Shown one piece after another: positions 3,495-60,724 of a DNA stretch of 64,000 nt. The DNA is from Hydractinia symbiolongicarpus. Its lineage: Eukaryota > Cnidaria > Hydrozoa > Anthoathecata > Hydractiniidae. Made by a program: the position numbers and the translations under genes. The notes under the pieces are model-generated. The model was not told the origin of the DNA and did no database searches. It saw only the letters and a program-made list of their open reading frames with translations. Location of the stretch: the NCBI RefSeq assembly GCF_029227915.1, contig NC_079876.1, positions 23,932,001 through 23,996,000 on the forward strand, written 5' to 3'. Numbering within the stretch: position 1 is the stretch's first letter; every line of letters starts with the position of its first letter.

Positions 3495-4965
3495 ATGAAA
3501 TTCACGTTAACAGTATTGTTGTTTTGCTTCGTAGTAACTGCAGGTAAGTGGTCATAGATATAATATGAAGTTTACATTACATTTTACATATCAGCATACA
3601 AAATTAGAAAGTTCTTAGTCGTTAAAGCTAAGTTATATTTTCAAATATATCTGGCCTTTCTATCCTTATAAGTTATTTTCAATTTTAACTTCTTCATTCT
3701 TAATTCTTTATTTAGCAAACAACATCCCAGCAAATGAAGCATCAATAGGTATGTTAAATAAAGTTATTTCTCATCGATGTTATGATATATGCATCTGTTG
3801 CCATATTTTCAGAAAAATATCAACTTTATTGGTAAACATAACAGCCAATACTATAGATCATAAAAGCATTAGGCGCGTTTTAAAAATTTAGGTTAATTAG
3901 CGAAGCTTTTCGTACATTGTCCGACGACATGAACAACTGAAATAAATTTAACATACATATTTATATCCTTTTTTCTCTTTTTGTCTTTTTAGAAGAGACC
4001 AAAGAACAGGATGCTGATACTGTCAAAGGTATACGCCCTTGGATGTTTTTACAATTTTATACACTTTAAACTGACATTTTCATTAGAATAACAATTTCAT
4101 TGCGACAAAAATTGCGACGAAAGTAATGAAGTTCAAAATGATGATGATTGCAATGATAATGATGAGCTAAATAATACCTATATATCAAATGATGGGCGTC
4201 GCCGACGTCGTTTTTACAGTTTTATACACTTTAAACTGACATTTTCATTAGAATAACAATTTCATTGCGACATTTCTGTTCTTTTTCCTCTATGTTTTTT
4301 TTTTTTTACTTTGCTTAGATTCAGCTGTTGAATCATCGCAAGAAAGTGATGATGACGACTGCGACGATGATGACGAAAGTAACGAAGTTCAAAATGATGA
4401 TGATTGCAATGATGATGATGAGCTAAATAATACCTATATATCAAATGATGGGCGTCGCCGACGATGCTACCGAAAGCGAAAATGTGGACGAAAATACAAA
4501 GGATATCTTTCTAAAGGATATGGTTACAAATTACGTGGTGGACGTAAAGGATATGTTGGACGCAAAAGCTATGTTGGACGTAAAAGATATGGTGGACGCA
4601 AAGAATATGGTGGACGTGAAGGACATGTTGGGCGTATAGGATATGGTGGACGCAAGGGATATGGTGGACGTAAAGGATATGTTGGGCGTAAAGGATATGG
4701 TGATGCTGGACGCAAAAGATACGGTGGACGCAGAGGATATGGTGGGCGCAAAGGATATGTTGGACGTAGAGGATATGGTGGACATAGAGGATATGGCGGA
4801 CGCAAAGGATATGGTGGACGCAAAGGATATGTTGGACGTAGAGGATATGGTGGACATAGAGGATATGGCGGACGCAAAGGATATGGTGGACGCAAAGGAT
4901 ATGGTAAACGCAAAGGACATGCTGGACGTAGGGGATATGGTGGACAAAGTTATCGTGTTTATTAG
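3495..4965 (+). CDS. Secreted protein with acidic pro-region and basic GYGGRK hexapeptide repeats
   Basis: Four exons (3495-3543, 3716-3748, 3993-4028, 4319-4965), all introns phase 1, give 254 residues. Residues 1-16 are a signal peptide. Residues about 24-84 are very acidic, with Asp runs around Cys54 and Cys69. A tetra-arginine (85-88) follows, then Cys89 and Cys95 in a basic stretch, then about two dozen copies of GY(G/V)GRK-like hexapeptides to the C-terminus. The layout of acidic pro-piece, polybasic site and cationic tail resembles antimicrobial or matrix-protein precursors. The repeated G-R-K also fits prohormone cleavage with amidation, giving very short peptides. I do not recognise a family. 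The repeat array contains higher-order duplications (about 72 bp around 4789-4900). Its divergent paralogue starts at 128. Confidence 0.8.
4039..4280 (+). pseudogene. Relic exon from tandem duplication inside intron 3
   Basis: Positions about 4108-4206 closely copy the 5' part of exon 4 (about 4360-4460), including the stretch encoding the Asp-rich segment and the GRRR site. The flanking intron segment 4039-4100 is repeated at 4209-4275. A tandem duplication of intron plus exon start has left a decayed second exon, which ends at GCCGACG and runs back into intron sequence, so it has lost the repeat-coding part. Confidence 0.7.
4550..4945 (+). repeat. 18-bp coding minisatellite (GYGGRK units)
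   Basis: Tandem units of 18 bp close to GGATATGGTGGACGCAAA encode the hexapeptide repeats of the secreted protein. Long antisense frames rich in Pro-Leu-Tyr or Ser-Thr arise here only because the repeat keeps all frames open. Confidence 0.85.
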
Positions 4966-7900
4966 AAGCACTGTGTTATTAAAACATTCTCGTACGTAAA
5001 ATTGTATTTCTGAATTATTTTCACTTTTAATATAGTTTTTTCTGATCTGACATCGCATTTGATCAAGGCGGAAATTTTTTTCAACATTCGCCACTAACTT
5101 TGTAAAAAAAAACAGAACCAAAAAATAACAACAAGCATAACAAGAAAGATACAGTAAAATATGCTGTGGTAACATAATCATTCGATGCTCTCGATTCAGA
5201 CGAAGTGTAAGTACCTATCTAGAGGAGTCTGAGTGTGCTGTTACAGTGTAACCTACGGCGTTAACAGGGACGGGATACATTTATGTCCCTCATTGGTACA
5301 TGTGCAATGAGATTTTACTGATTTGTCAATGGTGACTTCAACCTCGTCTCCAGTACTTTTTATATTTTTAAACATTTCTGAACAATGTTCTGGCCTTGAC
5401 TGGTTTAACGTAAAAGTTACTTAGTTGTAAGATTTTGCATACATAATCAGACAGGTGATTTTTGCGCGAGTTATCGTGTTAAGAGTGAGAACGTATATTG
5501 TGTGGTTTTATAATGATGACAATGTGTATGTAGTTAATTGTGGTTTTTGTTTTTGAAAGATCTTTTTGCACGATGCATTCTGTCAGAAAAAATTCGTACA
5601 GAAATCTTGCTAGCTACCGAATTATCACGTTATAAAACACCAGCTTAAAGTGCGAAGTTCGCTGTAATTTTTATGATTTAGTGCACAGGTTTAAACAAAT
5701 TCACGATTAATAAATCCGTATCTTAAGCAAAGAATACAAATTCCTTGATGTAATGTGTATCCCTCCTTGGTAAATCTGCAAGTCTCCTCACAAGTATAAG
5801 CAATTGCGGAAATATGACCTGCGGGCACTTTGACAGTCACACAACAAACAGTTTGTGTTCTGACGGAAGAAGATTTTTATGTTGAAGTCTTTTAATGCAA
5901 TTTATTAGGTCAACAATATACCATATCTTTGCCATCCGTTGTTTGCCGATTGCTTTATCAGATATACAAAAAAAAGAAAAAAGAAAAAGAAGGCATCATC
6001 TGAAATCAAGCAGATATATGATCGTCCCAACCCCCGTCGTATACTATCATATTTTTGACATGTTAGAAAAATTGAGTTTCTTTTTATACCATGGATTATA
6101 CTGGCTTTATTATATTTTTACTAGATATGAGGTTTATCCAACGTAAGATCTTAAGTCGCTTCTAGAAATTTTGTCCTGCAAACGGCGTAATGTAACAACA
6201 TATTGGCTACGTGAATCTTGAAATAGTGTCAAATAATTAATACTAACTAATATGAAAAAAGTCCATGCAGAAAACTAATGCTTTCTGATTAAACGACACG
6301 ATACATGTTCGCCAAATATTTAAAACATATACAGAACATACTTAGCCTCAATTCCCTCGTAGATATAGAAGAAAAAATAATGAGTGACTAAAAATTACTA
6401 AGCAGTAATTATTTTAGAACACATGTATGTTTTCACAAACAAAAAGATAACTTCGACATCATCTATTTCTTCTTTTTTTCGGATAGCTAAAACGTAAACA
6501 ATGAAGGGAGGTTATAAAGTTTTTCCAACACAGTAATAGGAAGATATGCGGTGGACATAGATTTATTTATGCAGCGGCCCCATCTTAAAAGGTCGGGCTA
6601 AACATCTAACGAAGTAATGAATTTAGATTTCCGCGTACTTTAATCTTACAAGGTAAGACTGATTCGGAAATTCAAGAAATGGTAGTAAATTAAAAAAGAC
6701 TTATATTGGCTGAAACAAAATCATTATATATAAAGTTAGAAAGAAAATCTTTCATTTTGTTATACGAATTTATAGCCAAATTCAGCCGGCGTGGATCGCA
6801 CATGCATCTATAAACCGGTGCTTCAAAGAAGTGCTGACCCGATTATTTGTCATGACAGGAAAACAGAAAAGTCTGTCCTCAGTTAAAATGATCATTTTAC
6901 GCGACATCAAAAGAAATACCTTAGCTTAATTTTAACATAGAAAGCGCAAAAAATGCTTGCCTGTTCTCCTTAGAACATCTTATTTGGTTAAAATGTTCTT
7001 GTCTTTTGACACAAAAGCCATAGTGGACAAATCAATGAAGGGTAAACACATTACTATATTGTTGGTTTTAATAAAGGTTTACTGAATTGGAATGAAACTT
7101 TAGTAAATCTTGCTAAAAAATAATGACAACCAATGAAGCTTTTAATAGATAGTTGGAAGAGTTGCAAAGAAGGCTACTTTTAAAGTCATTTGCTTGCACA
7201 CCTTTACTTTTTTATTTAGTTCTTAGTCAATCAAAATTTAAAAAAAAATTGATACAGGATTTGTAGTTCATATCGGTTCAGACCCTTATTTAAGCGGATT
7301 ATATTATATCAAGATTATGTGCGCACTATGACAGGACATATTTTTACAACATACATTTTTTATACAAGAAATAATTTAATAATTTAAATAATAAATCTTT
7401 CGCAGTTTTTGCATTAATCAGAAATGTATTTTTCTTGTCATTTTTGACACTTTTGATTAAGCAGTATTCATTATATGATCACTATTATGTATAATTGTGG
7501 GGTGTGGTTGCAGCGAAACAATTTTCCAACATTGATTGATATGAGGAGACACAGAAGGTAAAGACTTGAATACAGCATTTGCTATGTAAGCCATACAGCT
7601 CTTATATTTTCAGTTTTTTCATACCTAGATCTATTTTAAAATTTGTACTAGCCACGGCTAAAAAGATATATTTTTGTACAGCTTGAGTTAAGACTATGTT
7701 AGTAATCTTACATGCCACATCTTAGCTTTAAGAATCTTTATTTCCCCGTGTTAGACAGGGTCCAATAACAATGCTTTTGTATTTGCGACCAGTTTGGCCC
7801 AATAGGAAACAGCTTGTAAAATATGCCTTGTGTTCTTGTAATAATATCTTTCGCGATATTCTTGTTACAGAAAAGTAATAAAAAAATTGAAGTTTTATGT

Positions 7901-53087: not shown

Positions 53088-56000
53088 TCACTCGTCGTCT
53101 TCAGCTTCCTCTGCCTCGATTTCAGATTTCGATTTCGCGGGATTTACTATCGCATAAGTCCGTCGTAAGTGTTGAAGCTAAAAACAATATATTTTTGTAG
53201 TTTGTCCAAATGTTTTAGGTCTATTTCATTTCGGTTTCTTGATGAAATTTTTATGATTGTTTTACCATGCAAGTTTCATTATATGCGTAAAAAAAAATCA
53301 AAAAGGTATGATGTCACCTTTAATACAGTCAGGACCAATTTTCGGTTGGGGTAAAAAGAAGCATTTTCGTACCGTAAAAACGCTATAGAACATGTCATAA
53401 GTTGATTTAAATTCATGTTTTAAATTGGGCAAGACACGGTTTAACTTAAATAGACCTAGGAGAGTACAATTAGAGACGAGCAAGACGAGCCTATGATTCA
53501 ATTGTTATTACAAACAATACAGAACTTGAATAGATATTAATAGCTACTAAATAAAATGGCTCTCCTTCTCTATTTCTATCCTCCTAAACTAGACAGTCAA
53601 CAGGTAATCAACCTCGCTCTCCGCGGTCAACAACCAAATTATTACCTGATGTGCTGAATAAAATGAAACAAAAAACTCTGTCCAGCCTCCAGTTCGAACA
53701 CGGATAAGATCATATTGTTCTGGATTTATCATGGCTGCTCTATATGTCGACTGATTGGTACATGTTACTAATAAAAAAAACCGGAATTTGAATAAATAGT
53801 TGAAACGCATGGTTATAATTTACTATTCGCTAATTCTTGGAAAAAGGATAATGTTTAACTCGCATGGAGTCCCGGAATAAAACTGTGCGTAGCCATTTTA
53901 AGCATACAAAATACGGATGTTAGCAAAGAAGAAAGAACCGTCGTGATAAACGTGGTGATATTTGTATCATAAATTTAAGGACGAATTTTTTGTATTTTTT
54001 GTGCAAATGACGTTTTAAAGAAAGTTTTGAAACTCACGTGTTATAAGATTTGCACCAATTGCTTTCTTGTTTCCCACTACGTCCGCATTCGCGTAGTTAG
54101 TCAAAAATTCAAGTAAATTGTCTTCTTTAGTGTCTTCATCTATGACCAAATCAACTTCTGCACCATTTGGATATCCTGTTTTGATTGCTTCGATATCCCA
54201 ATATTTCATCAAACTATAAACGCAAAATTTTATGTTTTCGTGAATCATCCTTTAAGTCAACTTTTGACGTCGGATTTAATTCAAATAAAAGAACTAAAAG
54301 CAATTAAGGGAAGATACATTAAGACTGATTTTCACGAAAACAAAAATGATCAAATCAATCATCATCGCTCGTTAGACCAGTTTTGTTGAGAAACCCATTT
54401 TGTAGGATTTTAAAGTTGTAAATTTCTATAACTAAAAATATTCTTTAACAAAAATGTTTAAATTTTGTTATTTATAAGTTCATTAAAACTGTATATACAA
54501 ATACTTACTCATAAATGTCTTGATCGTTTCGTGGAGTGTCAGGAAGATCTTGCGGGATTGGCGCTGGACTCATGTCTGAAGCTATAGGCTGGCCTAATAA
54601 TGCAAATTGTGTTAGACGAAAGTAGAAGTATTGTACAGGAAAGTGAGTTCGGTTTAACTAAACTTTCTTTTTGCGTAACTTACCTTTTCTTCTGCCGTCA
54701 GCTGATGCAGCTAACCCTAAACCCCATCCAATATAACCCTCAAATGTTCCAGATCCGAGCATAAATCTAATAAAATCAGCAGGGTTTTTGGTTCTGCCAT
54801 ACTTTTCATTCAGATTCTTCATGAGATCGTATAAGGGGTATTTATCCGACGTGGTAACATCTTTGAAGGCTTCCACACATTCGTTTGAAAGCCATTCTGC
54901 AATATTCTTCAACTTTTGTGGTCGATAACTGGACAAGTATGTTTTATCAGAAGATTTTTCGTCGTCATTCATTCCAAGTTTTGGTAAATTAAGAACAAAC
55001 TCCCGTGCTAACTTCATATTTTCGGCTTTAATTGAATGACTTAACTCCCCATCCATGGGATCTTGAAGAGGTTCTTGTAAATCATACCCCCAATCTGACT
55101 TTAGTGCTCTCACAAGGGAGTCGAGTGTGATTAATGATTTCTCACCAAAACAGATTTCTTGGATGGCATAAAGCGAATTGACTGTATTGCTAAAAGAAAT
55201 TAACATACAGGCAATGATTTTAATAGCAGCACCGCCATTATAGATATCTTTTCCATCTTCTAAACATCCATCTATCAAACAAGATAGCAATTGAGAAGAA
55301 TACGCCTTGTAGATATTACCATAATTGCTGAGCAAGCCAGTCAACGCATCATGAATTTGCAATCGAAGATGCTTGCCAAATTGGTCCTTGATATCATCCA
55401 GACTCCTAATTTGATCAGATCCTGGTCTCAATTCCCTTGATATAGTGTACCCTCTCATCCCTGCAGGACCAGCGTCGACCATCGTAGCACCACGGTTCAA
55501 AGTCATTTCCAAAACCGCAAGAAGAGGTACATAACAGAATGAAAACTCGGACTTTCCAGGTATGATTGGTTCGTAGCATCCGTCACTAGAATAGCTAATG
55601 GCGTCTTTTAGTGATATGCCAGTAGAAACCAGTGCTGGTATTATTCGGTCATCATGTGGAAGGATAGGATGTGCTCCTCCGCTTAAAATGGTTTTGGTTG
55701 CCTCTTTCAAAACGTCTGTATCCATTCCACTGTGCATTCTTAATGACAAGCAAGGTGCATTTAATGGTAACCGCCGAGCCGCTTTTAAACACAGTTTTGC
55801 TATTTCTATTCTTTTTATAGAAGGTGCTATCTTATTTCCATTCTTATCTGCTGTGTAGCCCCCTACAGTAGCTTGCTGAACCCACTGGTTTCCTCCGTCT
55901 CCTCTCGGAAATCTCCCGTCGCTTCTATAAGGCACAGCAATCGTACCTGCTGTATAGAGATCTAATCTTGTTTCTCTGTTAATCTGCGCCCGTTCTCCAA

Positions 56001-59000
56001 CTTTTATCCAAAATGCATCAATGATATCTTGGTATTTCTCTTTATCTCTTTCATCTTTTAAGTCATAGAATTCTTCAAGCATGACATCTAGTCGTCCTAT
56101 GGACACAGGTTCTGTGCACAAATGTTGACAAGCATGTAGGATGAAGAGAAGTTGGACAGCTTCATGAAAATTAGTTGGTCTTCCTGTTGGATTTTCACTG
56201 TTACCACGGGCCAAATATTTCAGACGAGTAGCCATCTCTGACATATTATTGACGTCACACTTTAGCAACACAAATTGTATATTGCTACTTTGGCCTTCTT
56301 TAGCTAAATGCTCTGCCAAAAGACCATAATTTTCGATGTACTTTTGTACACCAGTAAATGCAATGCTGCAACTTTGAAGGTATTTCTTCTTTTCCACCTG
56401 TCCATCTTGAACAGCTTTTTCTATCATGGATTCAAGTTCCTTTAAAAATCCTGGAACGCCTTTTTGGAGAATCCGTTGATAACCTGGAACAACGTGTCCA
56501 TAACCGGATGCTTCATTTAGCTTTGCTGAATACGCCATGATGTTTTCGGCAGACATTTCTTTTGCAGATATATCCTTTTTAAAGTACGGCATAGCAATTT
56601 GTCCAATTCCTAAACCAAAAGCAGGCATCTTTCCAGCAATCAGTTCCTTTGGATGGATTTGAAACAAGTCATTAACCTGACCATAATGATTCTTTAGTTT
56701 GGACTCCGTGAAATCGCTTGTGGTGAACACATGCTCGAGGGTCAACCTTACCGCCCATGCCCTGCGTAACACCAACGATTCCGAAACGATCCCAGATATA
56801 CCAAGGGTAGAGTCTTTTTCCTTTATGAAATCCTCTAAATGTGGTATTGGCTCACATACTTTTTTCTTGAACCATGTCGTCTCCCATTGTTCAAACATTG
56901 ATTTCACAAGAATCAACACCCTATCTGACAGTGGGTCGGGATAAGGAACGTAATCAGAAGTAATATCTTTCGCTTTTCCCATTCTGTTAAGGTATTCCTT
57001 GTGATTATAAAACAAGTAATTATTGTTCTTTGGTTTCACGTTCCAATGTCTTAGCAGTAACTGATGATCAGGGTACCTTCCAATTGATAAATCGCTGTCA
57101 AATTCTTTCATAGCAGGAATGTAATAAAATGCACCATCCAAAGGATTTATGGTAGATATCAGTAGATCATTAGTGACCGATTCTTTAGGGCCTGATATAT
57201 TTTCCAAAATTTTCTTGATATAAGTAATTGATTTACCAACAGACATATAAAATATACCATCCTCCTTGTTAGCTCCTCCAAATTCCAATGTCTTCTCTTG
57301 CTGTCCTGTATAAGGCATTGATATTCGATGCAACTTGAAACATGAACGAGCATTGAGTGACTTTTCAGTCACATGAGCACACACAATGTGAGCTCGTGCA
57401 GATTTTCCAAGCAAGATTGTGTTATCTCTTTGCCGACCAATCATACGCGCAATATCAGAAGCGTTTTTTTGCCCCAAGATGTCCCAAGTAAATTCGAACT
57501 TCTGCTGCAGCATGTAGCTGCCACCAGGGTAGCCATTTACTCCTCCAATACATGCAGTAGATTCCTGTAATATGTTGGGATCTGTCTTGTTAGCTAGCCC
57601 ATCCACATAAACACCACTAATAACATCTTTTGAATCGCATTTTTGCACACGCAGGGCTAGCTGGTTTCTTGACGTAATATCGGTTAGGGCGTCGTGAAAT
57701 TTTTTGACTTTTCTAGCAAAATTTTTGTCTAATCCGCGGCTTGTGCGAACAACAATGCAGCAAACTCCTATTGAGAAAAATATGTTATACTGTTATATTT
57801 CACAGAAAATACAGTTCTTTTTTATGAACAAATCAGAAGACACAAGAACAGACCAATGGCTTTGCACTTAAAACCTTCTTGAAAAATTCAAAGAAAGTCA
57901 AAGTTTTAGGAGAGCTGTGTAACATGATTACTCACTTTGTTGGTTTCAAAAAGGTTTTATTTTGTTATTACAATGTTTAAAGCCCTTGGACATTGTTAGA
58001 AAAGCTGCATTGAAGGTCTATGACAATGCTTGCCTCGTTCACAGAAATAGTAAAGTTTCTGCAAAATATTCTTTGGGGCCGTTCAACAATTACGTAACAC
58101 GAAAATATAACATCTTTTACATGTACTTAGCGCACAAGATGACATTTTAAATACTTTTGCGTAAGTCCCAGAGGCAAGAAACAAATTCAAGATGTAGATC
58201 ATACACAAAAATAACTAAAATATACGTAACAAAATTGTTTTGAATTTTTTAAGTTCTGTGGTAAAACATTCACCGCAAGATATATTTCAGTGCGAAGAAT
58301 ATAGGAACCCTTTTTGCGTTCCAACATAGATTTCTTATGTAATTCAAATACAGTTAAAATTAGCAATTGAAGCTTAATCCCGCGAAAAAACAAGTTTAAC
58401 TAATATAAAAGACTTTTGAAAATGATCTTTTTTAAAAACTTCTTTCATATAAAAATAACATGTTAATTTTTGCGGGGGGTATACTTTAAATAAAAGAAAA
58501 ACAATTGCACTCTATCCTTAGCACTGGTTAAGTAAAAAACATACCATTTCCATTAATAAATTTTTGACTTTGAGGTAAAATGAAATGCGACTTCTCTCTC
58601 TGCTCTAATTTTCCAACAGATTTTTGCCAGCCAGTAATACCTTTGTTCACTTCTTCCCATACTGCAGGATCAAAACCGACAACAACATTAAACTTTTGCG
58701 TTTCTCCTTTATTGTCCAGCCATGTTTGCTTTATAAGAGTTTTTAACTCTTCAACACCCTAATGGAAAAAAAATTAATTCGTTTAAATTTCCGTTGCAGT
58801 GAAGTTGTTTCATTGTTTATACATAAATAGTCGTTTCGATAAACAAAAAAAAAAATTCTGCAAACGAGTGCAAGAAGAAAATATCTCAAATCAAGCCAGG
58901 CCAAGAAAATGCCTTCACAACGTTTCCATAACAACTGTTACAACTTTTAATTCTGTGTGAGGCTGACTTTTACTTTATTATAGATTTCTTTCTTCACTAC

Positions 59001-60724
59001 AATCTAGTTAAAAGTCTAGTACACGAGGAAAGCAAGCCTAATTGACAAGTAACATACCGTACGCCCTCATACGCCCATCCCACCCAAAATAAACACCTCT
59101 GGGCAGGCCTCCCGAAATACCAGCCCGCCCATTTCCACCTAATTGCGAATACTCATTCTTTCAGAGTATAAGTCTAAAAACCGCCATATAAGACCTAGGT
59201 GTTTTTCAGTTAAGATATGTAAAAAACCGCATTTGGGCTAGTCGAAAATTAATAGTCGGGAAAATTTTGTCACTGATGAATACAGTTTGTCTAAAGATAA
59301 TCTTAGGTATTGAGAAGAATGTATTTTCGTGTATTTGTTTATTTGCTGGTAATTTTCTTCTTTATTATCTTCACTCACTTGTAATCATCAAAGTTTATTA
59401 GTTCAAAAAAATTAAGAGTCGAAAATTACGTTAGTCAGGAAAACTTTTGGCTCGAAAACGACGCTCGCAATTAGCCAATTTTACGATTTTTTTTCGATAC
59501 ATTATGTCTCGGCGGTCAGCCATGTTTGTGCTTCCTTTTTCCTTGTAGGATGTATCAGTTACACACATCAAGTGAACTTGTAAATTAATTACACGAAACT
59601 GAGACAAGGAAATTGCGGTAATAAAAAGTTTACAAAAATGACACAAAAATGTCACAAAAATGACACAAAAATGTTACAAAGTGACACACAACTGTAACAG
59701 GAAAAAAAGGATCATATTTTACTTAAAAGAGGAAGATTTGTTGATCATATTTCAAAAGAAGGTAATTGTATTTTAATTTTTAATTAACCCTTTATGCATC
59801 AATTAAATGTTGTTTATAAAATCATTGGTTTATGTAGCCACAAGAATGATCAGTTAACACAGTGATGTAATCACACAAGTTTATCATAAACCGTATTAAA
59901 AAAAATATATTTGCATCATCTTACACATTATTTTAATTAATGTAATTGCAAACACAGCTGAAAATCCTGGGAACGAAATTGTCCAAACTTAAATTTTCCT
60001 GTGTATACAGTCTAGAGATCCGTGTTGTGTGTAGTTTTATTTTCTATCTAATCAGGAAAATAGTAAAGTTGAGATACTTTGCCATTATATTATTTTAGTT
60101 TCAAGATTGGTATTAGTTTTCTAAAATCTTGCTAAACATGTTTATGGCCACTTACTTTATAAATTCGACACTTTCTCTTTCTGTTTCATAGGTAACGAAG
60201 TCCAAAATGGATGATAATTTTTATCATGGGCTCTTTTTTTGAATAGCGCATCTGGTTCAAGTTTGTTAACTCAAATAAAATTCGTTCCCACTTACAGGAT
60301 TTCCGATCAGAACGGTCAAAGCAATACTTCCTCACCGGGGGAATTAGAAACAATCTAAGTTGGTCCGGGAAAATTTTAGCCACCGATGCATAGAATTAGT
60401 TCCTCCCGAATAAAGTTGGGTGCCAGGCAATGAAAAAAATACCCAATTGTTTTGAAAAAAAAATTCGTTTTGTTATCTTTTCCTCACCGTGCAAATTAGG
60501 GAACAAAATTGGAACGTATTTTAACAAAAAATAGGCCGCCAAAAAGTTCTAAATTTTGGGAGATTAAATTATTCGGGGTAAACTTTGACCTTTCAAAATT
60601 TACTTACATCGATTTTGTTCTTTTCAGTTGTGGTTTCGTCATCAAGTTCTTTCACTAGGAAAACGGTTCCAAATTTTGGTTGAGGGTAAAGAAGACCCTC
60701 CTGCATAAGAAATTCGGCTGCCAT
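53088..60724 (-). CDS. DyP-type peroxidase fused to a glycyl radical enzyme
   Basis: Seven exons in transcript order (60724-60608, 58758-58545, 57767-54684, 54593-54509, 54213-54038, 53767-53646, 53177-53088) give 1295 residues, all junctions in frame. Residues about 1-335 form a dye-decolorizing peroxidase of YfeX type: GVYVDG (162-167) is the GXXDG motif with catalytic Asp166, AHIVCAHV (236-243) holds the candidate proximal heme His, and LHRISMPY contains the distal Arg258. After a 50-residue linker, about 388-1277 is a glycyl radical enzyme: IHPKELIAG, GYGHVVPGYQRIL, the active-site DGCYEP (Cys841, Glu843), SADGRRKG, and RVRTGGWTEFF with the radical Gly near 1253. Cys-x-Glu points to the dehydratase/lyase class rather than pyruvate formate-lyase. 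A Glu/Asp-rich tail ends the protein. No organelle signal is obvious. A radical-SAM activase would be required and is not in the window. Substrate unknown. Confidence 0.9.
58759..60607 (-). other. Intron 1 of the fusion gene
   Basis: Longest intron of the gene. It includes a short imperfect tandem array of ATGACACAAAA-like units (about 59632-59690) and a GC-richer segment (59058-59145) with CGCCC words like those at about 40590. No nested gene is seen. Confidence 0.5.
59632..59690. repeat. 11-bp imperfect tandem repeat
   Basis: Four to five units close to ATGACACAAAA in intron 1 of the fusion gene. Confidence 0.6.

Follow-up and report, generated by a model that had tools for sequence, protein, structure and literature searches.

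How does an animal come to carry a gene in which a heme peroxidase is joined to an enzyme of a family whose catalytic glycyl radical is destroyed by oxygen, and what could such a protein do? The question is raised by a 64,000-nucleotide stretch of DNA from the hydrozoan Hydractinia symbiolongicarpus (RefSeq assembly GCF_029227915.1, contig NC_079876.1, positions 23,932,001 to 23,996,000; hereafter the window, in whose coordinates all positions are given), which is part of contig C2 in a genome of 480.9 Mb and 76 contigs. On its minus strand, between 60724 and 53088, lies a gene whose product is almost certainly a fusion of a DyP heme peroxidase with a glycyl radical enzyme (GRE), an arrangement also called DyP-PFL. 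The fusion architecture as such has already been published; what is new here is an intron-bearing and duplicated animal version, a tyrosine specific to the clade of fusions, and a poor association of the fusion with radical S-adenosylmethionine (SAM) activases.

The gene reads as seven exons of 117, 214, 3084, 85, 176, 122 and 90 bp. These are exon 1 at 60608..60724 (start ATG at 60724, beginning of the DyP N-domain, donor GTAAGT), exon 2 at 58545..58758 (DyP N-domain, with AG/GT borders), exon 3 at 54684..57767, exon 4 at 54509..54593, exon 5 at 54038..54213, exon 6 at 53646..53767 (with the glycyl loop RVRTGGW) and exon 7 at 53088..53177, whose TGA stop ends at 53088. Spliced, they leave 1,295 codons open and all six introns have GT-AG borders, the splicing being inferred from the sequence together with a matching second copy of the gene. 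Exon 3 is stop-free throughout; it covers the greater part of the DyP C-domain, runs through the join and includes the GRE barrel, so the junction of the two domains does not depend on any splice guess. A preliminary description of the locus had placed both enzymes in one open frame of an animal-type gene with introns, and both points are borne out, the latter also by the neighboring exons in the window, which encode a secretin-family seven-transmembrane receptor, a zinc carboxypeptidase and a CAP-Gly protein. The gene belongs to the animal genome and is not a microbial contaminant.

The identity of the two halves comes from profiles and solved structures. The DyP region occupies residues 8-331 (57106..60703, with two introns inside): Pfam Dyp_perox_C (PF20628) matches residues 164-331 over its cut-off at E 5.6e-10, and NCBIfam TIGR01413 (Dyp) matches residues 8-331 at E 8.6e-19, its 68 bits lying below the curated cut-off of 100.5. 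The PFL-like domain (PF02901) covers residues 513-1047 (54958..56562) at E 3.1e-75; the best NCBIfam GRE family, TIGR01774, scores 189.8 bits against a cut-off of 678.2, so the GRE half is divergent. The Pfam combination expected at the outset was found only in part: PF02901 is present, a search up to E 1 listed no PF04261 match for the animal protein, and the score of PF01228 (Gly_radical) remained below its cut-off in the two animal copies (E 0.062 and 0.029), the glycine loop aligning with the RVxGY loop of other GREs despite that weak score. Among solved structures, 31 distinct PDB sequences were matched, 29 of them GREs and two DyPs; the nearest GREs are the B12-independent glycerol dehydratase and its relatives, and the solved DyPs match the single sequence weakly (6e-4) and a seven-sequence profile at 1.1e-22. 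With these PDB matches and a paralogue repeating the same architecture, the pattern of matches is not a matter of chance.

That paralogue was recovered when the whole genome was scanned with PF02901 and PF20628 separately, each of which finds two places, the window gene and a copy on contig C3. The copy has 1,274 amino acids, is 65% identical to the window gene (825 of 1,264 aligned residues) and matches it in intron phase at six of six introns, the positions also agreeing when read against the alignment. Between the copies, the proportion of synonymous differences (pS) is 0.74-0.91, which is saturated, and that of nonsynonymous differences (pN) 0.19-0.26 over the four segments tested; both halves of both copies are under purifying constraint. 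Since the phases match and the synonymous sites are saturated, the introns predate the duplication and the duplication took place long ago, meaning that the gene was already intron-bearing when it was duplicated.

The preliminary description had considered the combination very unexpected, and here it was right only in part, because the same fusion has been published for fungi and prokaryotes and is found again in bacteria here. The excerpts of PMC5041501 used for this analysis report a DyP-B-PFL fusion in Chaetomium cochliodes and its relatives, as well as in other prokaryotes and eukaryotes, and the legend to Fig. 5 among those excerpts names Deuterostomia and Mollusca among DyP taxa, so that animal DyPs, fused or free, may have been seen before. 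No animal DyP-GRE fusion was found in the literature searched, as judged by titles and abstract openings.

For bacteria, tblastn against plasmid records turned up plasmids of two kinds of host. That of Asticcacaulis sp. AND118 carries a full-length fusion (31% identical over 88%). On that of Hymenobacter cellulosilyticus (L006:9034-12373), a fusion-clade GRE is spread over two overlapping frames and immediately followed by a DyP gene of its own, which may represent the fusion system in split form. A first scan of genome contigs queried with the animal protein gave no match; alignment with the Asticcacaulis protein gave six loci in GTDB genomes, in Pseudomonas, two cyanobacteria, two actinomycetes and Chromobacterium. 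Fusions are named from Asticcacaulis, Pseudomonas sp. SDI, Anabaena azotica, Amazonocrinis, Actinophytocola and Chromobacterium, and that of Saccharopolyspora spinosa, one of the two actinomycetes (L012:9725-13850, genome G006), is frame-shifted between two overlapping open frames. Sampling by order yielded the fusion in one of 291 genomes for Anabaena azotica (that genome itself) and five of 348 for Actinophytocola (two already known); for Chromobacterium, five of 349 genomes matched: two have a full-length fusion, one of these known beforehand, a third has a fusion fragment, and the other two have conventional GREs. In total, ten genomes hold a full-length fusion (G001-G006, G515, G618, G638 and G847, one of them frame-broken), in addition to one plasmid; G618 is counted as full-length since all motifs lie within one open frame of 1,345 codons, even though one TAG is flagged inside the match. 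Five of the ten are actinomycetes of a single order, and the ten are not independent cases. The fusion is rare and patchy across bacteria, and the groups that carry it are mostly aerobic.

In Pseudomonas sp. SDI (L007:7774-13930) and on the Asticcacaulis plasmid (L005:6355-12453), a DUF2278 gene, an FGE/SUMF1-like gene and the fusion lie close together in the same order. The DUF2278/FGE-like pair was not seen at L008-L012, where one or two hand-picked frames were scanned per locus. Having been seen only in those two bacteria, the pair was left out of the mechanism as a candidate activase.

The residues that would carry catalysis were compared across 12 fusions (two animal, ten bacterial), a set that was also used for the trees and omits the frame-broken Saccharopolyspora gene and the fragment in G877 (L061). 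Invariant in all 12 in the DyP half are His237 (codon 57388..57390), by alignment the proximal heme ligand, and Arg258 (57325..57327), by alignment the distal arginine; of the peroxidase motifs named at the outset, these two stand, and the strict GXXDG does not, being VYVDG in the window gene and LFVDG in the copy, with the Asp-Gly pair present. Similarly invariant in the GRE half are His535, the Cys841-Tyr842-Glu843-Pro844 of DGCYEP (Cys841 codon 55576..55578) and Arg1250-x-Gly-Gly1253-Trp1254 (Gly1253 codon 53685..53687). DGCYEP and RVRTGGW are present as first read and align with the catalytic cysteine and radical glycine of glycerol dehydratase (1r8w), where Cys841, Glu843, His535 and Gly1253 correspond to Cys433, Glu435, His164 and Gly763, which I take to be the catalytic set. 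Asp447 and His281 of the same enzyme, presumably its substrate residues, are not kept in the alignment with it. Since the catalytic set is kept but those two residues are not, the comparison suggests an elimination-type GRE acting on a substrate other than glycerol.

In all 12 fusions, and likewise in the Hymenobacter GRE with its adjoining DyP gene, the catalytic cysteine is directly followed by a tyrosine. The same position held no tyrosine in any of the 30 conventional-GRE loci in which the cysteine loop was found (of 31, the motif search having missed the loop in one; loci L024-L052, L062 and L063), nor in the five PDB GREs compared. Within the sequences compared, a tyrosine at the place of Tyr842 is peculiar to the fusion clade, the Hymenobacter GRE included. 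The tryptophan after the radical glycine is also constant in this clade, against a tyrosine in the 31 conventional GREs, although all 31 were picked by the motif R[VI][SAC]GY, which includes that tyrosine, so that its presence there is not independent evidence. Further along, His1265 and His1269, at the end of exon 6 and start of exon 7, form part of an HQxxHxRR motif that does not vary among the 12 fusions or in the Hymenobacter GRE; the four conventional GREs in the alignment lack both histidines.

Separate trees of the two halves, proposed in the preliminary description, gave a split answer. The DyP half places the 12 fusions in a single group (91/85), to which neither the free-standing DyPs nor the Hymenobacter DyP belong. 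For the GRE half, the group at 100/100 takes in the Hymenobacter GRE along with the 12 fusions, and the 12 by themselves reach only 53/29. In both trees, which were built without fungal sequences and for which the program flagged long branches and deviant composition of the animal rows, the animal pair has a long stem and branches apart from the ten bacterial fusions, at 75/93 in the GRE tree and 83/87 in the DyP tree. This topology fits a single fusion event after which the gene, fused, passed to the animal lineage, and I infer that this lineage acquired it from a microbe in which it was already fused, the introns being probably a later addition.

If the GRE half works as its relatives do, one would expect a radical-SAM activase to travel with it. 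The canonical activase TIGR02494 was over its cut-off in only one of the ten full-length fusion genomes, Chromobacterium, where its neighbor is a conventional GRE that stands apart from the fusion, at a distance of 5 kb; in both control genomes chosen for a conventional GRE, a TIGR02494 activase lies close to that GRE. Of 51 matches to the broader Fer4_12 profile, 21 were classified: the top match in each of the ten fusion genomes, plus the 11 remaining matches in the six genomes where no activase was found (these tallies include the frame-broken G006 among the ten and keep G877 apart). Those six are G001, G004, G006, G515, G618 and G638, and none of their 17 Fer4_12 matches, all of which were scanned, is a GRE activase or NrdG; they are PqqE, MoaA or MoaA-like, QueE-like, FxsB, mycofactocin maturase and two SPASM-type proteins without a family. 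The fusion mostly does not travel with a radical-SAM activase. PqqE-type radical-SAM proteins occur in three of the six (G001, G004 and G006). Separately, cyanobacteria with and without the fusion (L077, L078, L079) have in common a radical-SAM protein resembling NrdG, which scored under the NrdG cut-off in both of those tested.

The poor association with activases suggests that the peroxidase may itself be the radical generator. This idea is absent from the preliminary description, which had conjectured removal of peroxide, action in series or hand-over of a product. The heme peroxidase is favored as generator because of the mostly aerobic range of hosts, the frequent lack of the usual activase, and the redox-active tyrosine next to the catalytic cysteine. 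In such a scheme, the DyP domain would bind heme at His237 and form Compound I from peroxide, and a putative aromatic relay, with Tyr842 as the prime candidate and Trp1254 as the second, would carry the oxidising equivalent to the GRE domain, where a thiyl or glycyl radical could be made without a radical-SAM activase; the GRE barrel might then use the His535-Cys841-Glu843 set to run an elimination-type reaction on a substrate that does not resemble glycerol. Most probably the fused protein acts on its own. That a heme-peroxide route generates a protein radical is a tentative proposal, with somewhat less than an even chance of being correct: the classification of further Fer4_12 matches removed one weakness, the tryptophan and tree facts weakened it, and its standing, still short of even, did not change. 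More doubtful is the broader generalization that DyP-GRE fusions form a class of glycyl or thiyl radical enzymes adapted to oxygen, in which heme peroxidase and peroxide would make the radical in cis without radical SAM, and that the animal has kept two of them.

Several observations weigh against this proposal. The bacterial fusions have RFxEN or RYxEN, with a glutamate at the distal acid in place of the GXXDG aspartate; the archaeal PFL2 (2f3o) also has a tryptophan after its radical glycine, which is thus no mark of the clade; and the animal DyP half has a very long branch. An AlphaFold2 model of exon 3 from ten sequences reached a predicted local distance difference test (pLDDT) of 50.1 and a predicted template modeling score (pTM) of 0.48, too low for any reading, the distance from heme to glycyl loop included. 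Fer4_12 also uncovered NrdG-type proteins, possible activases, in four of the ten fusion genomes: Chromobacterium has NrdG, G847 has NrdG2, and the two cyanobacteria have NrdG-like proteins that do not reach the NrdG cut-off. G877, with its fusion fragment, has a TIGR02494 activase as well. In the animal genome, an exon-by-exon search for TIGR02494 gave no candidate, a negative that an intron-split activase could escape and that is weak, because the PF04055 control found only two matches, one below cut-off, which were judged by inspection to be lipoyl synthase and MOCS1. Finally, the excerpts of PMC5041501 (Zamocky 2016) mention a putative PFL activase in Chaetomium.

The activases bear most directly on a protective role, in which a radical-SAM enzyme, of the NrdG type or one still to be discovered, activates the GRE and the tethered DyP removes peroxide so that the GRE survives air. 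It is established that known GREs use radical-SAM activases, and the NrdG-type proteins of the four genomes, one of which also has the canonical activase, could supply one; however, no activase-type protein was found in the other six of the ten, and a peroxidase does not remove O2, the very agent that destroys glycyl radicals. The Chaetomium gene rises 3-fold with peroxide and 18.5-fold with peroxyacetic acid according to the same excerpts of PMC5041501, which, alongside the putative activase there, agrees with protection, although the induction fits activation equally. On balance I consider the protective role unlikely, though it is one of the two main rivals to the proposal.

A comparable, rather low probability attaches to the other main rival, the view that there is no glycyl radical at all and that the GRE fold is a scaffold, or hosts only a cysteine or tyrosine radical made by the DyP, or that the halves act in series on one substrate. 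The sub-threshold PF01228 scores, a loop that reads TGGW instead of [SAC]GY, and the loss of the dehydratase's Asp447 and His281 all speak for it, but Arg-x-Gly-Gly-Trp is invariant in 12 of 12 fusions, though an unused loop could drift. That the gene is a decaying, functionless relic, as the long animal branch (chiefly of the DyP half) might hint, is very improbable in view of two open copies with strong constraint in four of four segments tested. Least probable of all is an artefact of bacterial or fungal contamination or mis-joined assembly, which the mainly microbial distribution of both families would invite and which I reject on the grounds of the six GT-AG introns, the animal neighbors, the presence of two copies, on separate contigs, whose introns agree in phase, and the bacterial fusions with the same domain order.

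Elsewhere in the window, at 4252-5214, short tandem peptide repeats (RKGYVGRKSY-like) are encoded, with long open frames on both strands.

Known GREs are activated by radical-SAM enzymes under anoxic conditions. That the fusion is conserved in mostly aerobic bacteria, fungi and an animal without tracking those activases raises the question whether a glycyl radical forms in the presence of air at all and, if so, by what route; a DyP-GRE activity would add a radical enzyme to animal metabolism, and both the duplicated animal version and the activase mismatch are points worth following up. Among known systems, the DyP-B-PFL of Chaetomium cochliodes is alike in having an N-terminal DyP and a C-terminal PFL-like GRE in one polypeptide, and it differs in being fungal, with "none" in what I take to be the intron column of its table row in the excerpts of PMC5041501, whereas the animal gene has six introns and two copies. 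The bacterial fusions, annotated as "Dyp-type peroxidase", are full-length collinear homologues, 31-35% identical with key residues kept, and unlike the animal gene they are intron-free and carry the glutamate for the GXXDG aspartate. The B12-independent glycerol dehydratase shares the GRE barrel and the counterparts of His164, Cys433, Glu435 and Gly763; the animal fusion adds a DyP half, has not kept Asp447 and His281, and has a TGGW loop. The free-standing DyPs among the PDB matches, many of them encapsulin cargo or DypB, have the DyP profile, proximal histidine and distal arginine in common with the animal protein, which is fused. Should the fusions prove to be a class free of radical SAM, they would stand to conventional GREs much as class I ribonucleotide reductases stand to class III.

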